A stretch of DNA of 39,128 nt from Pseudomonadota bacterium (GTDB lineage: Bacteria; Pseudomonadota; Gammaproteobacteria; JAADHS01): assembly GCA_021821045.1 (NCBI GenBank), contig JAKACW010000041.1:1-39128 (forward strand), written 5' to 3'. Positions within the stretch are counted from its first letter, which is position 1; each line of letters opens with the position of its first letter. Positions 1,161 to 17,344 of the stretch are shown one piece after another. Position numbers and translations under genes: made by a program. Below the pieces are notes generated by a model. The model was not told where the DNA came from, did no database searches, and saw only the letters and a program-made list of their open reading frames with translations.

Positions 1161-1540
1161 TTCGCCATTCACGCTGGGAGCGGATCGTAAAGAATCGCGG
1201 AATGATCCGCTTCCACCCGTGTCGATTTACGACAAACGGGATCACCCCGAACACGTCCTGGATTTTTTAATCCCAACCAAACGAAGCCGATCTCTGGAGC
1301 CACCCGGCGCGCCCCGCGCCCCGCTCGATTTCACCAATGCAATTTATTTCAATCGGCAACACTCGCGGAAGCCCATGAACTGTAACGTTTCCGTATCTGA
1401 CCCGTCGAAAACTGCCGAATTTCTCCAACTCCCTTCCACGCAGTAGTTAATAAACAGGACGATGGGGCGACAACTATTAGTGCAAAGCCGCAACCGCGCC
1501 CCGACAAGTGACACCGACAACATCCAGCAGCGCCCCGCGC
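1145..1540. other. Intergenic region of about 400 bp
   Basis: Apart from the hairpin at the first stop codon and REP-like copy 1, no convincing gene is visible. The stretch 1340-1460 is AT-richer than its surroundings (TTAATAAA near 1447) and probably holds the promoter of the downstream kinase, but no good -35/-10 pair stands out. Confidence 0.5.
1175..1216. repeat. REP-like palindromic repeat, copy 1
   Basis: The arms GGGAGCGGATC (1176-1186) and GATCCGCTTCC (1204-1214) pair with one mismatch around a 17-base loop containing AATCGCGGAAT. The right part (AGAATCGCGGAATGATCCGC, 1191-1210) is identical to the copy at 36513-36532. It lies outside genes, just after the first gene. Confidence 0.65.
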
Positions 1541-4183
1541 ATGAAGTCTCAACAAAAGCACCGTGTGCTCCTAACAATTGTGCTCGCCTCAAGCGCGCTG
1601 CTCTGGGCCGCCGGCCTGTTCTTTGTCCATTTGCAACGCGACGCCAAGAGTCACACCGCCAGCGCGCTGGAAACCGTGCTGAGAACGACTCATCAAGCGT
1701 TGCGCTCCTGGGCGGACGCGCAGAAATCCGCGGTAGGCCTGGCTGCATCGTCCCCCAGCCTCGCCCGCCACACCGAGAACCTGCTGCGCGACGCTGCGAA
1801 TGCCGAAACGCTTCGCGCCCACGGTTCGCAGCAGAAAATTCGCGCCCTGCTGCAGCGCTACCTGACGATGTTCAATTTCGAGGATTACTTCATTGTCGGC
1901 CCCGGCAATTTCAACTTGTCATCGATGGGGAACGCAACCATCGGACAAGAGAGTGCGCTGGTGGCGCGCTCCCATGTGCTTGCGCGGCTACGGGACGGCG
2001 ACACCGTGCTGACTCTGCCGCAGCATGGCGACGGTCGCGGGCATGATGGCGAGGCCGATCATGCAAGCACGCTGTTTGTCGGCACCGCCATCCGCGATCA
2101 TGCCGGGAAACCGATCGCGGTACTGGCGTTTCGCATCAATCCTCATCTCGACTTCGTCCGCCTGCTATCGCGCGGACGCCTGCGCGACACCGGCGAAACG
2201 TACGCCATGGACCGCCACGGCGTGCTGATCAGCGAAAGCCGGTTCGAACCCCGGCTGCGTGCTCGCGGCATACTCGCCGCCGGTCAGAACGCGATGCTGA
2301 ACGTCGCCGTCACGACCACGGGAATGCTGGACGGAACGCCCACGCTGTCCGCCGCCGCACTGCTGCGGGGAGAGAGCGGCGCCGAACTGGAAGGCTACAC
2401 CAATTACCTTGGCACGCCGGTAGTCGGCGCCTGGGTATGGGACCCTGAACTGGGCTTGGGGCTCATCAGCGAGATGGAAAAGGCCGAGGCCTATGCGGCG
2501 GTGTGGCGGAACACGCTGATTCTCGCCTTGCTCATCGGGCTGATGATCATGATGGTCGCGGGCGTCAACATCAGCTTCCAACGTAATCGTGAAAAAGTCA
2601 CGGCCAGCCGGGAGCAACTGCGCCAGGTCATGGACCTGGTACCGCACATGATTCTCGCCAAGAACGAGCAAGGCGAAATCATCCTGGCCAACAAGGCCGC
2701 GGCCGACTTGCATGGCGTCGACCCGCCCGCCCTCTGCCGCGGCGCCAAGACCGCTGCACATTGGATCGCTTCCGCCGACGGGGATCCATTGCTCCGCGAT
2801 CGCCAGATCATGGCCACCGGCGAACGACAGGTGGTTGCCGAAGAAACATTCGTCGACGCTCGCGGCGTCAGCCGCACGATGCGCACGGTGAGAATTCCGT
2901 TCGCGTGCAACAGCCGATCCAGTCCCGCGGTCCTGTACTTCGCCACCGACGTCAGCGAACAAAAGGAGACGGAGCGAATCCTGCGTCGCTACCAAACCAA
3001 GCTGGAGCAATTGGTGGACGAGCGCACGCGAGAACTGGCCGACAATGGCCGCGAGCTGCGCGAAAGCGAAGAACATCGGCGCTTGATTCTGGACTCCGCG
3101 GGCGAAGGGATTTTCGGCATCGGTTTGGATGGGCGCGCCACGTTTATCAATCCGGCCGCCGCGGACATGCTCGGCTACGCAGTGGACGAACTAGCGGGCC
3201 GGGCAGTTCATCCGCTGCTCCTGCACCATCGTGCGAGCGGCGAACCCTATCCGTTCGACCAAACACCTATCCATGCCGCAATGACCAACGGAACCGTACA
3301 ACGCGTCACCGACGAGGTCCTGTGGCGCAAGGATGGCGTCGCGTTTCCGGTGGAGTACGTCGCGACGCCGATCCGCAGACGGGGCGAAGTTATCGGCGCC
3401 GTGGTGTCGTTCAACGACATCACTCACCGCAAGGAAGTCGAACGCATGAAGAGCGAGTTCGTGTCGGTGGTCAGTCACGAATTGCGCACACCGCTCACCT
3501 CGATTCGCGGTTCTCTGGGTTTGTTGCTGATGATGAAAAATGCTCAACTGCCCGCGCAAACCGAGGAGTTGCTACACATCGCTCACCGCAACAGCGAACG
3601 CCTGCTGTTGCTAATCAACGATTTGCTCGACATGGAGAAAATCGCTTCCGGAAAGATGGTCTTCGACCTGGGGCCGCAACCCATCACCCCCATAATCGAA
3701 CAAGCCATCGCAAACAATCGCGCCTACGCCGATCAATATGGCGTGACCTATCGCTTGGCGCGAACAGCGAACAGCGCCCGCGTCAACGTCGATGGCGACA
3801 GACTGACGCAAGTGCTAAACAACCTGCTTTCCAACGCAACGAAGTTTTCGCCCCGCGGCGACCAAGTCGACATTGCCATCGATCGCCAGGACGGCCAAAT
3901 CCGCGTGTCCGTCAGCGACCACGGCCCCGGCATTCCCGAGGAATTCCGCGAGCGCATTTTCCAGAAGTTCTCTCAAGCCGACAGCTCCGATACCCGCCAG
4001 AAGGGCGGCACCGGTCTCGGCCTGGCCATCAGCAAGTCCATTATCGACAAATTGGGCGGCAAGATCGGCTTTGACAGCTCCGTGGGCGCCGGAACGACAT
4101 TTTACTTTTTGCTCCCCGAGGCGGCGGCGCCTCATGACGTCAGCGTGAAGTCCGTGGTGCTCGAGGCCATGGCGGAGGATTAA
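1541..4183 (+). CDS. Membrane sensor histidine kinase: Cache, two PAS, HisKA, HATPase
   Basis: The 880-residue kinase has this order: N-terminal membrane helix (about 8-29), extracytoplasmic Cache-like sensor (about 30-320, with the typical GETYAMDRHGVLISESRF stretch), second membrane helix (about 324-346), PAS 1 (about 356-475), a coiled-coil linker, PAS 2 (about 512-635), HisKA with phospho-acceptor His646 in SHELRTPLTSI, and a C-terminal ATPase domain with N box NNLLSNATKFSP, DHGPGIP and GGTGLGLAIS. There is no receiver domain and no adjacent response regulator, so it is an orphan kinase whose partner lies elsewhere. I chose the ATG at 1541, right before the signal-anchor helix. A GTG at 1508 would add 11 residues, and neither start has a good ribosome site. 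The ligand is unknown; Cache domains generally bind small metabolites. Confidence 0.9.
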   Translation: MKSQQKHRVLLTIVLASSALLWAAGLFFVHLQRDAKSHTASALETVLRTTHQALRSWADAQKSAVGLAASSPSLARHTENLLRDAANAETLRAHGSQQKIRALLQRYLTMFNFEDYFIVGPGNFNLSSMGNATIGQESALVARSHVLARLRDGDTVLTLPQHGDGRGHDGEADHASTLFVGTAIRDHAGKPIAVLAFRINPHLDFVRLLSRGRLRDTGETYAMDRHGVLISESRFEPRLRARGILAAGQNAMLNVAVTTTGMLDGTPTLSAAALLRGESGAELEGYTNYLGTPVVGAWVWDPELGLGLISEMEKAEAYAAVWRNTLILALLIGLMIMMVAGVNISFQRNREKVTASREQLRQVMDLVPHMILAKNEQGEIILANKAAADLHGVDPPALCRGAKTAAHWIASADGDPLLRDRQIMATGERQVVAEETFVDARGVSRTMRTVRIPFACNSRSSPAVLYFATDVSEQKETERILRRYQTKLEQLVDERTRELADNGRELRESEEHRRLILDSAGEGIFGIGLDGRATFINPAAADMLGYAVDELAGRAVHPLLLHHRASGEPYPFDQTPIHAAMTNGTVQRVTDEVLWRKDGVAFPVEYVATPIRRRGEVIGAVVSFNDITHRKEVERMKSEFVSVVSHELRTPLTSIRGSLGLLLMMKNAQLPAQTEELLHIAHRNSERLLLLINDLLDMEKIASGKMVFDLGPQPITPIIEQAIANNRAYADQYGVTYRLARTANSARVNVDGDRLTQVLNNLLSNATKFSPRGDQVDIAIDRQDGQIRVSVSDHGPGIPEEFRERIFQKFSQADSSDTRQKGGTGLGLAISKSIIDKLGGKIGFDSSVGAGTTFYFLLPEAAAPHDVSVKSVVLEAMAED

Positions 4184-4614: not shown

Positions 4615-4640
4615 TCGGCCGTCGCGAATAATCCACAGTG

Positions 4641-4677
4641 AGCCCGCGTCGGCAACGACGCGGGCTTTTTAATTTTT
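4641..4677 (+). terminator. Rho-independent terminator
   Basis: AGCCCGCGTC (4641-4650) and GACGCGGGCT (4657-4666) form a perfect 10-bp GC-rich stem with a 6-base loop, followed by T-rich DNA (TTTTTAATTTTT). It ends the transcript of the small exported protein. Confidence 0.9.
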
Positions 4678-4722: not shown

Positions 4723-6018
4723 ATGAAAACGGACGACATCAAGGATCCTTACCACCGCACCATCCGCGAGCTTTCGGATCGGATCGTCGAAGCGCAGCAA
4801 CCCATCCGCGTGCTCGATGCCATCAAATGGGACAATGGTATTCGGGATGCGTTTTTCGCCTCCGGCTGCAAGTCGCTGCCCACGGTCGACAAGAGCTACT
4901 ACGCCGGCCGCCCCCTGGGCTACGATCCCGACGAAAAACGCCAGCAGTTCTTCGCCATCGAGCGGGATATCGTGCGCAAACTCGGGCAGTTCAATCCCGT
5001 CGGCCAGATCATGCAACGTATGTGTCGCGAGTACCAGATGGTGATTCGCATGCTTGAGGTGCGCGGCACACCCGAGTTCTCCAGTTTGTCCGAGGAACTG
5101 TACGGATCATCGGGCGACGTATTCCACAGCGGCGATCCGAACCTGGCCGACCTCGGCCAAATGATGAGCGAGACCTTGGGCAATCTCGATGGCAACGGCC
5201 TGTTGGCGCTGGAACCGAAAACCATCAACGCCGAAACGGCGGTGAAGATCCTTCAAGAGCGGCTCGATAGCGTGTTTCGACCGCTTGACGCCAGTATCAC
5301 GGTTAAACTGAGCGACGGCATCATCGCCGACGCCGCCGCGGGCGCCGACTACATTAAAGTGCGCAATGACGCGATGTTTAATGAACGGGACTTGCGCATC
5401 CTTGAAATCCACGAGGGATGGGTCCATGTGGGAACCACCCTCAACGGGAAAAGCCAGCCGCTGTGCACCTTCTTGAGCAAAGGCACGCCCTCCGCGTTGA
5501 CGACCCAAGAGGGGCTGGCGATATTGATGGAGATTCTCGCCTTCGCATCCTACCCGCTGCGCCTGCGCCGGCTGTCCAATCGCATCCGCGCCGTGCAGAT
5601 GGCGGAATCGGGCGCCGATTTTCTCGAGGTTTTTCGCTTTTTTGTCAACCAAGGTCAAACCGACAGCGACGCCTACGGCAACGCCACCCGCATTTTCCGC
5701 GGCAGCACGCCGACGCTCGGCCCCTTCACCAAGGACCTGTGCTACAACAAGGGTTTCATCATGGTGTACAACTATATTCAACTCGCCGTGCGCAAGGGCA
5801 TGTTGGATCGGATTCCCTTGCTGTTCCTGGGCAAGACCGTGCTCGACGACATGCGGCGTTTGGCCCAATTGGTCGACGAAGGAATTATCCGCCCACCGCT
5901 GATTCTCCCGCCCCAGTTCGCCGACTTGAACGCGCTTGCCGCGTGGATGTGCTATTCGAACTTCCTCAATCGCTTGAGCATGGACAAAATCGAAGCAGAC
6001 TACGCCGGCATTTTTTGA
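4723..6018 (+). CDS. DUF1704 / QEGLA-motif putative zinc metallopeptidase
   Basis: The 431-residue cytoplasmic protein carries TQEGLAILMEIL (Gln262-Glu263), the signature of the family often annotated as flavohemoglobin expression-modulating QEGLA motif protein (DUF1704). It also has HEGWVH at residues 230-235, a HExxxH pattern. In the eukaryotic members of this family (MATCAP/KIAA0895L, tubulin tyrosine carboxypeptidases) a HExxxH motif plus a downstream Glu binds zinc; here Glu263 in QEGLA lies 28 residues after the second His. A carboxypeptidase-like activity is therefore likely by homology, but the bacterial substrate is unknown. The ATG at 4723 has GAAGAG about 10 bases upstream, and TATACT at 4693-4698 is a candidate -10 box. 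The stop codon directly abuts that of the convergent MFS gene. Confidence 0.85.
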   Translation: MKTDDIKDPYHRTIRELSDRIVEAQQPIRVLDAIKWDNGIRDAFFASGCKSLPTVDKSYYAGRPLGYDPDEKRQQFFAIERDIVRKLGQFNPVGQIMQRMCREYQMVIRMLEVRGTPEFSSLSEELYGSSGDVFHSGDPNLADLGQMMSETLGNLDGNGLLALEPKTINAETAVKILQERLDSVFRPLDASITVKLSDGIIADAAAGADYIKVRNDAMFNERDLRILEIHEGWVHVGTTLNGKSQPLCTFLSKGTPSALTTQEGLAILMEILAFASYPLRLRRLSNRIRAVQMAESGADFLEVFRFFVNQGQTDSDAYGNATRIFRGSTPTLGPFTKDLCYNKGFIMVYNYIQLAVRKGMLDRIPLLFLGKTVLDDMRRLAQLVDEGIIRPPLILPPQFADLNALAAWMCYSNFLNRLSMDKIEADYAGIF

Positions 6019-7389
6019 TTACTTAGGCGCGCGCTTCGATCCGATGATGTCGAAAAACAGACCCGACAAGACATTGAACCGAGCCACGCGAAAGATCAGC
6101 CCCCCCACCGACATTCGCCGCACAACCCGCACTTCCTTCAGCCGCGGAAGAAAGATCGCCGCCACGGTCAGGCGAGCCAAGGTGGACAGGGCAAAAACGC
6201 CGTAGAGTGCCGAAAGCCAAGTGAACGTTGTCTCGCCCAGAGTGATCGACGTCGGCAAGTGCATCGCCAAAAAGCCGCCCAGGATCGCGCCCGCGAACAC
6301 GCCGATGCTGCTCATAACGTTATGAATGGCAAGAAATCCCACGCGCTGCCGCGACGGGATGAGATCGTAGAGAAAATTGCCGGCGCTCAGATTAAACCCG
6401 GCCCACGCCAAGCCGCCCAGCAGCTGGATGACCAGCAGATAGACGTAATCAGTCGAAAACAACCACATTGCAGGCAGCCACGGTATTACCCACCCCGTTG
6501 TGGCCAGAATCAGCCGATTGCCAAATGCATCGCTCAGCCTGCCAAAGAAGTTCAAGGTAAAAAACTGCACCAATACGACGGCGCCGGTATTGATGGTGAA
6601 CTCGAGATACGTCCACTGCAAATCTCGCAGCATGTAAACCGTGAAAAACGGTGAGGCAATGGCGGTCGCGAATTGCATGAGCGCGAAAAACACCGAGAAC
6701 CTAAACACCGGCGCGGCGCGAAATCCGCTCCAACCCGATCGGACCTCGGCTACATCCAGCACCGCCACGTGGCCCGGCGGATCGTACATGCGGCCAAGGT
6801 GATAGACCGAGATGATCCGACCGATGAGGGCAATGACAAACACGGTGACGAAACCCGCCGCGGTCTCCCCCTGAGCAGTAAATCCGTGCAGCAGGAGGCC
6901 GGCGCCGATCAGCGCAACGAATGAAGCGATGCTGCCCTGGCGCGTGCGCAACGCGAAGTACCGACCGCGCCGCCGCTCGGGAACCAACTCCCCCATCAGG
7001 CTCACCCACTGGGGAATCGCCAGATTCGCCGCGGCGAAATAAAATACGACGCCCAACATGAGGATAATTCCGGCGTATGCGGGAAACAGCAGCGGCAACG
7101 CGATAATCGGCAACCAAGTCAACGCCTGCAGCCCGGCGCCGGTCAGAATGATCCGCTTGCGCCGGTTGATGCGATGACCCCACGCCGCCGAAACCAGTTG
7201 CGCAAATGACCCCAGCAATGGCGGCAACGCAGCCAACCAGCCGATCATGGCCACGGACATATTGAGAAACACGGCGTAAGCGGAGAAATAGGCCTCGCCC
7301 GCCCCCGTCATGACGGCGTACGCCACGCCATCCCGTATCGAATGACGCAGCGACTTGTCTACAACGGGATCGCGTGAAAAACGGCGCAT
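6019..7389 (-). CDS. Major facilitator superfamily transporter
   Basis: The 456-residue hydrophobic protein has about twelve predicted membrane helices and the charged loop 2-3 pattern (GHRINRRKR) of MFS carriers, with a second copy in the C-terminal half (GRLSDAFGNR). The substrate cannot be read from the sequence. I chose the ATG at 7389, which has GGAG about 8 bases upstream (minus-strand GGGAGCGGAGTGC), rather than the TTG at 7452, which adds 21 residues without a ribosome site. The gene ends at 6019 with no base between its stop and that of the convergent DUF1704 gene, and it is divergent from mgtE. The last 40 residues form a basic cytoplasmic tail. Confidence 0.88.
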   Translation of the reverse strand: MRRFSRDPVVDKSLRHSIRDGVAYAVMTGAGEAYFSAYAVFLNMSVAMIGWLAALPPLLGSFAQLVSAAWGHRINRRKRIILTGAGLQALTWLPIIALPLLFPAYAGIILMLGVVFYFAAANLAIPQWVSLMGELVPERRRGRYFALRTRQGSIASFVALIGAGLLLHGFTAQGETAAGFVTVFVIALIGRIISVYHLGRMYDPPGHVAVLDVAEVRSGWSGFRAAPVFRFSVFFALMQFATAIASPFFTVYMLRDLQWTYLEFTINTGAVVLVQFFTLNFFGRLSDAFGNRLILATTGWVIPWLPAMWLFSTDYVYLLVIQLLGGLAWAGFNLSAGNFLYDLIPSRQRVGFLAIHNVMSSIGVFAGAILGGFLAMHLPTSITLGETTFTWLSALYGVFALSTLARLTVAAIFLPRLKEVRVVRRMSVGGLIFRVARFNVLSGLFFDIIGSKRAPK

Positions 7390-7536
7390 GCACTCCGCTC
7401 CCTGGCCCGGCTCGATGGAGATGGGAAAATGACTGGCGATTATACGAGACAACGTCGCGGATCATGCATTCGCACGATCGACGCGACCCACCCTGTTATC
7501 GGTGGCGCTGGGCGAAATATTAATCGCAACAGTGCT

Positions 7537-15612: not shown

Positions 15613-15688
15613 TGGCGTCCCCTAGGGGATTCGAACCCCTGTTACCGCCGTGAAAGGGCGATGTCCTAGGCCTCTAGACGAAGGGGAC
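15613..15688 (-). tRNA. tRNA-Glu (anticodon TTC)
   Basis: This 76-base gene has an encoded CCA end. The acceptor stem GTCCCCT/AGGGGAC, D arm, anticodon loop CTTTCAC (anticodon TTC) and T arm with GTTCGAATCC are all present, and it is nearly identical in my memory to the E. coli tRNA-Glu. It is downstream of gltX, whose product charges it. Confidence 0.97.
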
Positions 15689-15813
15689 GGAGACTGCTGC
15701 GATGCGGGCTAGGACTCCCGGCGACGCGAAGGTGTGCAAATTACTCGAGGCCCATTCTGATGTCAAGGTTTTGGGCCATAAACGTCGTTATTTTTAGTAA
15801 CTTGCGGGTTGGG

Positions 15814-15889
<76 letters not shown>

Positions 15890-15928
15890 GCACGGAACGG
15901 TGCAATTTAATGGAGGACGACGGGACTG

Positions 15929-17344
15929 TCAAGCGCCGCCGGCCTCGCTTTTGATCGCGATGTAGGACAGTGCTCGGTCCAATCGGGCCAGGGTTTTGTT
16001 TCGGCCCAACAAGGCCAGGGTCACGTCGATGGGCGGCGAAACCGTACCCCCGGTGACGGCGACGCGCAAGGGTTGGGCGACTTTGCCCAGTTTCAGACCA
16101 AGCTTTTCCGCCGTCTCCTGCACCACGGCATGCAACGGCTCGGCTTGCCAGCCGCTCAGCGCGCTGAAACGGGCGCGCAGTTCCTCCAGCGCGGGCCGGG
16201 CGTCCACCGTCAGGTGCTTGGTCGCCGCCGGGTCATAGTCGGCAAAATCGCGATAGAAGAACACACTGTTCTGCGCCATCTCGACCAAAGTCTTGGCCCT
16301 CTCTCGCTGCGCGGTGACGACGTCGACCAGCGATGGACCTTGCGTGGGATCTATTCCGAGCGCGCCCATGTGGATGCTCAAGTGATGGGCGACGTGGGCG
16401 GGATCGCTCGATTTGATGTAATGCTGATTGAGCCACAGCAGCTTCGACGCGTTGAACGACGAGGCTGAATGATTCACGTTATTAATATCAAACAGCTTGA
16501 ACATTTCGTCCAAGGTAAAAATTTCTTGATCGCCATGAGACCAGCCTAGCCGCACCAGATAGTTGAGCAGCGCTTCGGGCAAGAAGCCGTCATCGCGATA
16601 CTGCATCACGCTGACCGCGCCGTGGCGCTTGGACAAGCGCGCGCCGTCCTCGCCCAGAATCATGGGAACGTGGGCATATTTTGGCGGCTCCGCGCCCATG
16701 GCCTTGAGAATATTGATCTGGCGCGGCGTATTGTTCAGATGGTCGTCGCCGCGAATGACGTGGGTGATCTTCATATCGAAATCATCCACCACCACCACGA
16801 AGTTGTAAGTGGGTGTGCCGTCAGAGCGAGAGATAATCAGATCGTCGAGTTCAGTGTTCTGAAACACCACGCGGCCGCGAATCATGTCATCGACCACCAC
16901 CGCACCGTCAGTAGGATTGCGAAAGCGCACGACATACGGCGCGCCTTCCGGCTGATCCTTGCGGTGGCGACACAGGCCGTCGTAGCGCGGCTTTTCCTTG
17001 CGCGCCATTTGCTCTTCGCGAAGTGCATCCAGGCGTTCTTTGCTGCAGTAGCATTTGTACGCTTTGCCTTCCGCCATCAGCTGGCCGATGGCGTCGCGAT
17101 AACGATCGAAACGCTGGCTCTGATAAAACGGCCCCTCGTCGTAGTCCAACCCCAGCCACGTCATGCCTTCGAGAATGGCGTTAACCGATTCGACAGTGGA
17201 ACGCTCGACGTCCGTATCCTCGATGCGCAGAATAAATGTGCCGCCGTGACGACGGGCGTAAAGCCACGAAAACAGGGCCGTGCGCGCACCGCCGATATGC
17301 AGATATCCGGTGGGGCTTGGCGCGAAGCGGGTTCTTATGGTCAT
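15929..17344 (-). CDS. gltX: Glutamyl-tRNA synthetase
   Basis: The 471-residue class I synthetase attaches glutamate to tRNA-Glu using ATP. Visible motifs are the HIGH signature in [19 protein letters not shown] (residues 7-25), the KMSKS equivalent in [10 protein letters not shown] (around 240), and CYC...CRH (around 100-128), matching the zinc-binding knuckle of the E. coli-type enzyme. The length is the same as E. coli GltX (471). The ATG at 17344 has GGAAAA a few bases upstream. It heads a likely operon gltX, tRNA-Ala, tRNA-Glu, terminator. Confidence 0.97.

Follow-up and report, generated by a model that had tools for sequence, protein, structure and literature searches.

What does a relative of the human tubulin carboxypeptidases do in a bacterium, a host in which, to our knowledge, no tubulin is to be expected? 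The question is raised by one gene in a 39,128-nucleotide stretch of gammaproteobacterial DNA (contig JAKACW010000041.1), the whole of which is referred to here as the window:

4723..6018, + strand: MATCAP/DUF1704 (QEGLA) gene, predicted metallo-carboxypeptidase (PF08014, TIGR02421, fold match).

We tentatively propose, with somewhat less than even confidence, that the product is a metal-dependent MATCAP carboxypeptidase serving as an eraser of glutamyl tails or peptides made by ATP-grasp ligases; the metal, the activity, the exopeptidase mode and the glutamyl substrate are what we infer.

The open reading frame (ORF) runs from an ATG start to a stop codon and encodes 431 amino acids. MATCAP (PF08014, DUF1704) was the only Pfam family reported for this protein, at 437 bits against a gathering score of 27. 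The match covers residues 43-416 and positions 2-364 of the 365-position profile, and its E-value of 6.8e-131 puts a chance match far out of the question. With the NCBIfam model TIGR02421 (QEGLA), the score was 385.2 bits, above the curated cut-off of 338.65. The gene is an ordinary member of an already named family and is the sole MATCAP match in its own genome (G000). Its nearest named relative, at 78% identity, belongs to a genome titled Acidiferrobacterales. No signal peptide was seen by eye, and the protein is probably cytoplasmic, judging from its sequence. A preliminary description of this DNA had named the product a DUF1704 relative of tubulin tyrosine carboxypeptidases, which is borne out by both profile matches and by the human alignment and fold given below. 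The tie to flavohemoglobin expression that it also mentioned is the NCBIfam name of TIGR02421; a literature text search found no origin for that name, and the phrase turned up in one paper, only as a gene label.

Three segments of the protein stand out by their invariant residues:

5410..5427, + strand: HEGWVH (H230-E231-xxx-H235), with His230 and His235 as predicted metal ligands and Glu231 as predicted catalytic residue (invariant in 36/36 rows; E231 on human E281).

5506..5520, + strand: QEGLA (Q262-A266), with Glu263 as predicted third metal ligand (Q262, E263, G264 and A266 invariant in 36/36 rows; E263 on human E316).

5689..5754, + strand: R323, R326-G327, K337-D338, Y341 and G344, invariant and also present in human MATCAP (putative role in substrate-carboxylate binding or in structure).

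Re-reading of the translation gave H, E, H, Q, E and G at residues 230, 231, 235, 262, 263 and 264, and the residue numbers originally assigned to the site (H230, E231, H235, E263, QEGLA) are correct. The bare HExxxH motif is not rare: translation of the window in all six frames gives seven occurrences, the MATCAP copy included. Conservation was read from two alignments, from which the partial sequences L040, L045, L050 and L089 were left out. The close alignment held 18 sequences, namely the window protein and 17 homologues of 53-78% identity with titles from Gammaproteobacteria, Planctomycetota, Hydrogenedentes, Holophagae and Rhodothermaeota; 110 positions never varied in it, including H230, E231, H235, Q262, E263 and G264. 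The diverse alignment held 36 bacterial MATCAP domains, the window protein and 35 others chosen from 55 listed, down to 20% identity. Its 23 invariant positions were L31, P53, G128, H230, E231, H235, N241, Q262, E263, G264, A266, E270, R280, R287, F300, R323, R326, G327, K337, D338, Y341, G344 and G370. The intact HExxxH...E site claimed at the outset is upheld by these counts, as all four site residues were invariant in 18/18 and 36/36 rows.

The same site can be followed into the human protein. A mixed profile built from the 36 bacterial domains reached human MATCAP (7z5g) at E 1.6e-19, with HExxxH placed on HEIGTH and QEG on EEG, in agreement with the site plan proposed in the preliminary description. 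Counted along the printed human segment in the numbering of PMC10499314, E231 falls on E281 and E263 on E316, and according to passages of that paper (Nicot et al. 2023), TMCP1 assayed in HEK293 cells is strongly impaired by E281A and by E316A. On visual inspection, the human segment also has N241, R323, R326-G327, K337-D338, Y341, G344 and G370-K371; E270, R280 and R287, which are invariant in the bacterial rows, are seemingly absent from it in the printed alignment. The mixed profile was needed for this match, as neither the window-group (Group I) profile at E<=10, which was also the narrowest of three group profiles, nor the single window sequence found a MATCAP match in the PDB. Human MATCAP was found at E 3e-17 by the profile of a mostly fused group and at 2.4e-4 by that of another stand-alone group, E-values that serve as a rough guide to kinship since the three profiles differ in row number and breadth.

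An AlphaFold2 model made from the 18-row alignment had a mean pLDDT of 78.3, with a weak stretch around residues 241-260. The top Foldseek ranks were taken by four chains of human MATCAP together with the chain bound to microtubules (E 2e-5 to 7e-5), and VIA-align gave human MATCAP a Z of 22.2 (rmsd 3.2, 296 residues, about 20% identity); the comparison of a predicted structure with MATCAP that had been suggested beforehand thus returned human MATCAP as the best PDB match. The next fold by VIA-align was a DUF885 protein (Z 16.6), and M32 carboxypeptidases had a Z of 9.9. DUF885, M32, oligoendopeptidase F and ACE folds were considered as closest kin and, being weaker in VIA-align, were set aside as distant kin only.

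In the proposed mechanism, His230, His235 and Glu263 would hold a metal, Glu231 would activate water, and the conserved R323, R326 and K337 would probably grip the terminal carboxylate of the substrate. C-terminal residues, chiefly glutamate, would be released singly from glutamate-rich tails or free poly-alpha-L-glutamate peptides. An ATP-grasp ligase would make those tails or peptides (RimK or, for fused relatives, a GshB-like ligase), and MATCAP would act as an eraser and recycler alongside RimB and an AstE/AspA-type hydrolase. Such an activity has a precedent in the human relatives, which are described in passages of PMC10499314 as taking off C-terminal residues of tubulin and shortening polyglutamate chains. 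Zinc as the metal of the window protein is an assumption only, because according to the same passages human TMCP1/MATCAP is mostly inhibited by added Zn and regains activity with Mn and Co; TMCP2 is restored by all three.

A literature search found no biochemistry of a bacterial MATCAP/QEGLA member. That result is in keeping with a non-peptidase reading, in which the protein would be a metal-dependent hydrolase or binding protein (for example an amidase whose substrate is a glutamyl metabolite) or would have a regulatory role, as the flavohemoglobin name hints, and the N-formylglutamate amidohydrolase-related region of the fused relatives described below points the same way. We nevertheless regard it as very unlikely, given the four site residues invariant in all 36 rows, MATCAP as the sole Pfam family reported, and a fold and site held in common with a characterised carboxypeptidase.

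The surroundings of the gene name no partner for the proposed carboxypeptidase:

1508..4183, + strand: sensor histidine kinase ORF, upstream (NCBIfam); nothing ties it to the MATCAP gene.

4640..4667, + strand: terminator-like hairpin of 12 pairs (9 GC) with a T-rich tail, just upstream of the MATCAP gene (hairpin search).

6019..7452, - strand: MFS transporter ORF converging on the MATCAP gene, the two stop codons side by side; no part of the system (ORF and Pfam).

The MATCAP gene looks to be transcribed on its own, with an upstream boundary that is suggestive only, three such terminator-like sites having been found in the window versus 3.2 expected from shuffles. The histidine kinase and a 112-aa ORF upstream were rejected as partners, the hairpin lying in between; the 112-aa ORF also has no Pfam match and no shared cluster among the homologous loci. 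Elsewhere in the window, a DUF4412-like ORF (98-1144) lies less than 5 kb from the MATCAP gene, and a weak, below-cut-off DUF4412-like ORF adjoins MATCAP at locus L045 (1344-2135). A glutamyl/glutaminyl-tRNA synthetase-type ORF stands beside tRNA-Glu and tRNA-Ala genes at 15613-17344.

A stand-alone gene with terminator-like and convergent boundaries would also suit a MATCAP-type metallo-carboxypeptidase that acts on C-termini unrelated to RimK, in general or regulatory trimming or in peptide scavenging. So would the varied neighbours of stand-alone MATCAP loci, as seen on clustering of the loci, and the statement in passages of PMC10499314 that tails with a terminal Tyr, Phe or Ala are also substrates of human TMCP1. 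Any link to RimK would then be a matter of lineage history.

MATCAP genes were carried by 47/398 genomes in the window's phylum and by 38/199 genomes in a second sample from Planctomycetota, to which the Planctomycetales genome L042 belongs. Match score and open frame decided between stand-alone and fused forms, with ORF calls and the tree as further criteria for fetched loci. Despite their long open frames, G031, G154, G500 and G506 were placed in stand-alone groups; G368, G460 and G552, which carry both types, were counted as stand-alone, as was G547, which is stand-alone by length but groups with the fused clade in the tree and has a GshB-like ligase as its neighbour. The partial G173 and G591 were counted as fused, and the fragments G240 and G608 were kept apart. 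RimK is a poly-alpha-glutamate ligase; strong RimK was defined as a PF08443 match at E<=1e-50, a threshold set after the first 17-genome RimK results had been seen and kept strict because weaker PF08443 matches are near universal (13/14 control genomes).

By this definition, 154/398 genomes of the window's phylum have strong RimK: 34/35 stand-alone carriers (G000 included) versus 116/351 non-carriers (Fisher p 2e-14), along with 4/11 fused-only carriers and 0/1 fragment carrier (G240). The Planctomycetota sample gave 26/28 stand-alone carriers versus 34/161 non-carriers (p 3e-13), with 2/9 fused-only carriers and 1/1 fragment carrier (G608). Of the 17 genomes found by way of close homologues from several phyla, 14 had RimK above 190 bits; three (G409, G411 and G412) are also part of the Planctomycetota sample. 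Stand-alone MATCAP without strong RimK was seen in G368, G506 and G547.

Control families temper these figures. FGase in Planctomycetota was present in 19/28 stand-alone carriers versus 37/161 non-carriers (odds ratio 7, versus 49 for RimK), RimB in the window's phylum was likewise enriched (27/35 stand-alone carriers versus 103/351 non-carriers), and the stand-alone carriers of that phylum all fall in one class. When that class was collapsed to one entry per family in a hand tally, all eight carrier families were among the 21 RimK-positive families of 36 (p = 0.007). The association is probably real, with its strength overstated by shared descent, because the control families are enriched too and the carriers fall in one class. 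Eight stand-alone carriers with RimK lack a RimB match (G031, G090, G094, G154, G284, G302, G393 and G397), and MATCAP therefore does not simply follow RimB. The sizeable enrichment that the FGase and RimB controls attribute to lineage keeps trimming unrelated to RimK a serious rival, one that we rate somewhat less likely than the glutamyl-tail reading: RimK is present in 34/35 and 26/28 carriers, from two phyla that are interleaved in the MATCAP tree, and some neighbour genes are linked to glutamate. A literature text search found no paper that pairs the words RimK and MATCAP and only two that mention QEGLA or DUF1704; the co-occurrence is a new substrate lead for stand-alone MATCAPs. As a separate observation, the MATCAP copy of G240 (C1:1483790-1484281) is broken and contains an in-frame stop, and this genome has no strong RimK either; the four other carriers with its family label keep both.

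Three clades make up the 58-row tree. The window clade comprises 33 stand-alone rows (support 100/99), the second holds 16 FGase-fused and 4 stand-alone rows, and the third consists of five Planctomycetota rows on a long branch, for which the program warns that long-branch joins may be false. Within the window clade, rows of the window's phylum and of Planctomycetota are interleaved, which suggests transfer, and 31/33 of its rows come from genomes with strong RimK, the exceptions being G368 and G506. A MATCAP gene 65.7% identical to that of the window lies unannotated at 63425-64717 of OQ572403.1, an UNVERIFIED record titled 'Pseudomonas phage Y1'; the stretch may be bacterial DNA inside a phage record.

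Gene order gives the proposed link to RimK a handful of direct examples. Most stand-alone MATCAPs, that of the window included, do not adjoin rimK; among the listed RimK places, at least four (G290, G362, G569 and G607) are within about 11 kb of MATCAP, of 60 RimK-positive stand-alone carriers. Loci L105, L106, L108 and L109 were selected for their listed proximity to RimK, and they are examples rather than a sample. MATCAP, AstE/AspA and RimK genes follow in a row on one strand at L105 (G569), 150-180 nt apart; RimK is the adjacent divergent neighbour of MATCAP at L106 (G290) and lies about 5 kb away at L054 (G362). Other neighbours concern glutamate itself: an NAD-glutamate dehydrogenase gene is directly upstream of MATCAP on the same strand at L036, L049 and L051 (20, 12 and 3 nt) and upstream on the same strand at L033 (roughly 100 nt by aligned start), and the gene next to MATCAP in Legionella adelaidensis encodes a glutamate racemase. 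Betaine and arginine metabolism genes surround MATCAP in Pseudoalteromonas. An AstE/AspA neighbour of rimK was rejected as a marker of MATCAP carriers (6/20 carriers versus 12/20 RimK-positive non-carriers, p = 0.11). The RimK proteins at L105 (10337-11554) and L109 (16634-17878), which stand beside AstE/AspA-type hydrolases, have an extra C-terminal TrkA_C domain, a domain linked to potassium transport.

The window's organism has a RimK system of its own. Its RimK (E 1.5e-67) is on contig C91 and its MATCAP on contig C118, so that the two are unlinked in this genome; rimK is directly followed by aspA (AstE/AspA gene), a RimB-like stretch seen by tblastn only (53 bits) lies before it, and the genome has a PF05618 match. 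This raises the question of whether MATCAP serves specifically to erase the poly-glutamate with which RimK extends ribosomal protein S6 (RpsF), and so would join RimB as another protease of the S6 tail. The RimK association would agree with it, as would the precedent of RimB, which according to passages of PMC11957791 removes RimK-added glutamates from RpsF, and a Glu-ending S6 was found in 11/24 RimK-positive stand-alone carriers read. The organism's own S6 ends in ...QYDSASA, with Ala and no terminal Glu for RimK to extend, and 4/5 RimK-negative genomes read also have a Glu-ending S6; these tail counts leave out G437, and G569 has an unusually long frame and an uncertain tail. Since a Glu-ending S6 tracks neither RimK nor MATCAP, S6 is no safe common target, and the S6-specific reading is weakened to the point that we rate it unlikely.

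The fused relatives pair with a different ATP-grasp ligase. Their N-terminal region is related to N-formylglutamate amidohydrolase (FGase) by BLAST; a Pfam scan of two fused examples reported no FGase domain there. Of 14 fused MATCAP loci retrieved in the window's phylum, 13 have a GshB-like ATP-grasp gene immediately beside them on the same strand (gap or overlap <=97 nt), the neighbour at the fourteenth (L081) being an AstE/AspA-type hydrolase gene, and a separate FGase gene adjoins several fused loci. FGase, QEGLA and glutathione synthase are annotated in a row on a rhizobial plasmid, and a GshB-like stretch stands just before QEGLA in Photobacterium sp. DA100; the MATCAP copy on a Vibrio plasmid has no annotated ligase adjoining. 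Passages of PMC10308900 report that A0J47_RS17020 (GshB) and RS17025 (QEGLA) of Photobacterium damselae are up 38.4- and 27.5-fold at 1% versus 3% NaCl. From their consecutive locus tags the two genes would be neighbours, and their induction at low salt makes an osmotic role for the ligase and peptidase possible. At L085, 4709-10910, one strand carries a run of genes for FGase, fused MATCAP, GshB-like ligase, a RimB-family protease and a 7TM-transglutaminase protein. The FGase/GshB operon was rejected as the context of the window gene, as its genome has no FGase match and its copy lies in another clade.

Read as a glutamyl-tail carboxypeptidase, the protein would account for its site, the human activities, the RimK link, the fused ATP-grasp link and the glutamate dehydrogenase neighbours. 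The earlier idea that the substrate could be a C-terminal tail or small peptide agrees with this reading, with genomic context pointing to glutamate-rich tails or peptides; as a whole, the earlier interpretation is partly supported. It is possible, though less likely than not, that bacterial MATCAPs at large supply the missing carboxypeptidase that erases glutamyl tails made by ATP-grasp ligases and that the tubulin code reuses a bacterial pairing of writer and eraser. Tubulin ligases are ATP-grasp enzymes. If the idea is true, the eukaryotic combination of ATP-grasp writer and MATCAP zincin eraser was predated by pairs of RimK with stand-alone MATCAP and of GshB-like ligase with FGase-fused MATCAP. 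The RimK link would give a concrete substrate class and an assay to the widespread QEGLA/DUF1704 family, whose name gives no mechanism, and a testable origin to the enzymes that detyrosinate and deglutamylate tubulin.

Among known systems, the closest include human MATCAP/TMCP1 (KIAA0895L; PDB 7z5g, 7z6s) and TMCP2. Human MATCAP/TMCP1, on which the comparison was made, has in common with the window protein the HExxxH motif, an EG-motif third ligand, the fold, and the R..RG, KDxxYxxG and GK motifs; it differs in having about 20% identity over the aligned fold and, by hand count, E315 where the window protein has Q262. M32 carboxypeptidases, which carry HExxH, and DUF885 proteins are distantly alike in structure, clearly below the MATCAP match. 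With NCBIfam TIGR02421 (flavohemoglobin expression-modulating QEGLA motif protein) there is no difference, the window protein being a member above the cut-off of a family whose name carries no mechanism. FGase-fused QEGLA proteins (about 630-800 aa; rhizobia, Photobacterium) share the MATCAP domain and are also paired with an ATP-grasp ligase, but have the extra N-terminal FGase-related region, a different ligase and a separate clade, and their group's profile finds human MATCAP better (E 3e-17) than that of the window group. The RimB-family protease and 7TM-transglutaminase pair at L085 resembles the rlo operon as described in passages of PMC12239564. Finally, RimB of the RimK system has the same job as that proposed for the window MATCAP, the removal of ligase-added glutamates; unlike MATCAP, it is, in passages of PMC11957791, a retropepsin-like aspartic endopeptidase and no metallopeptidase.
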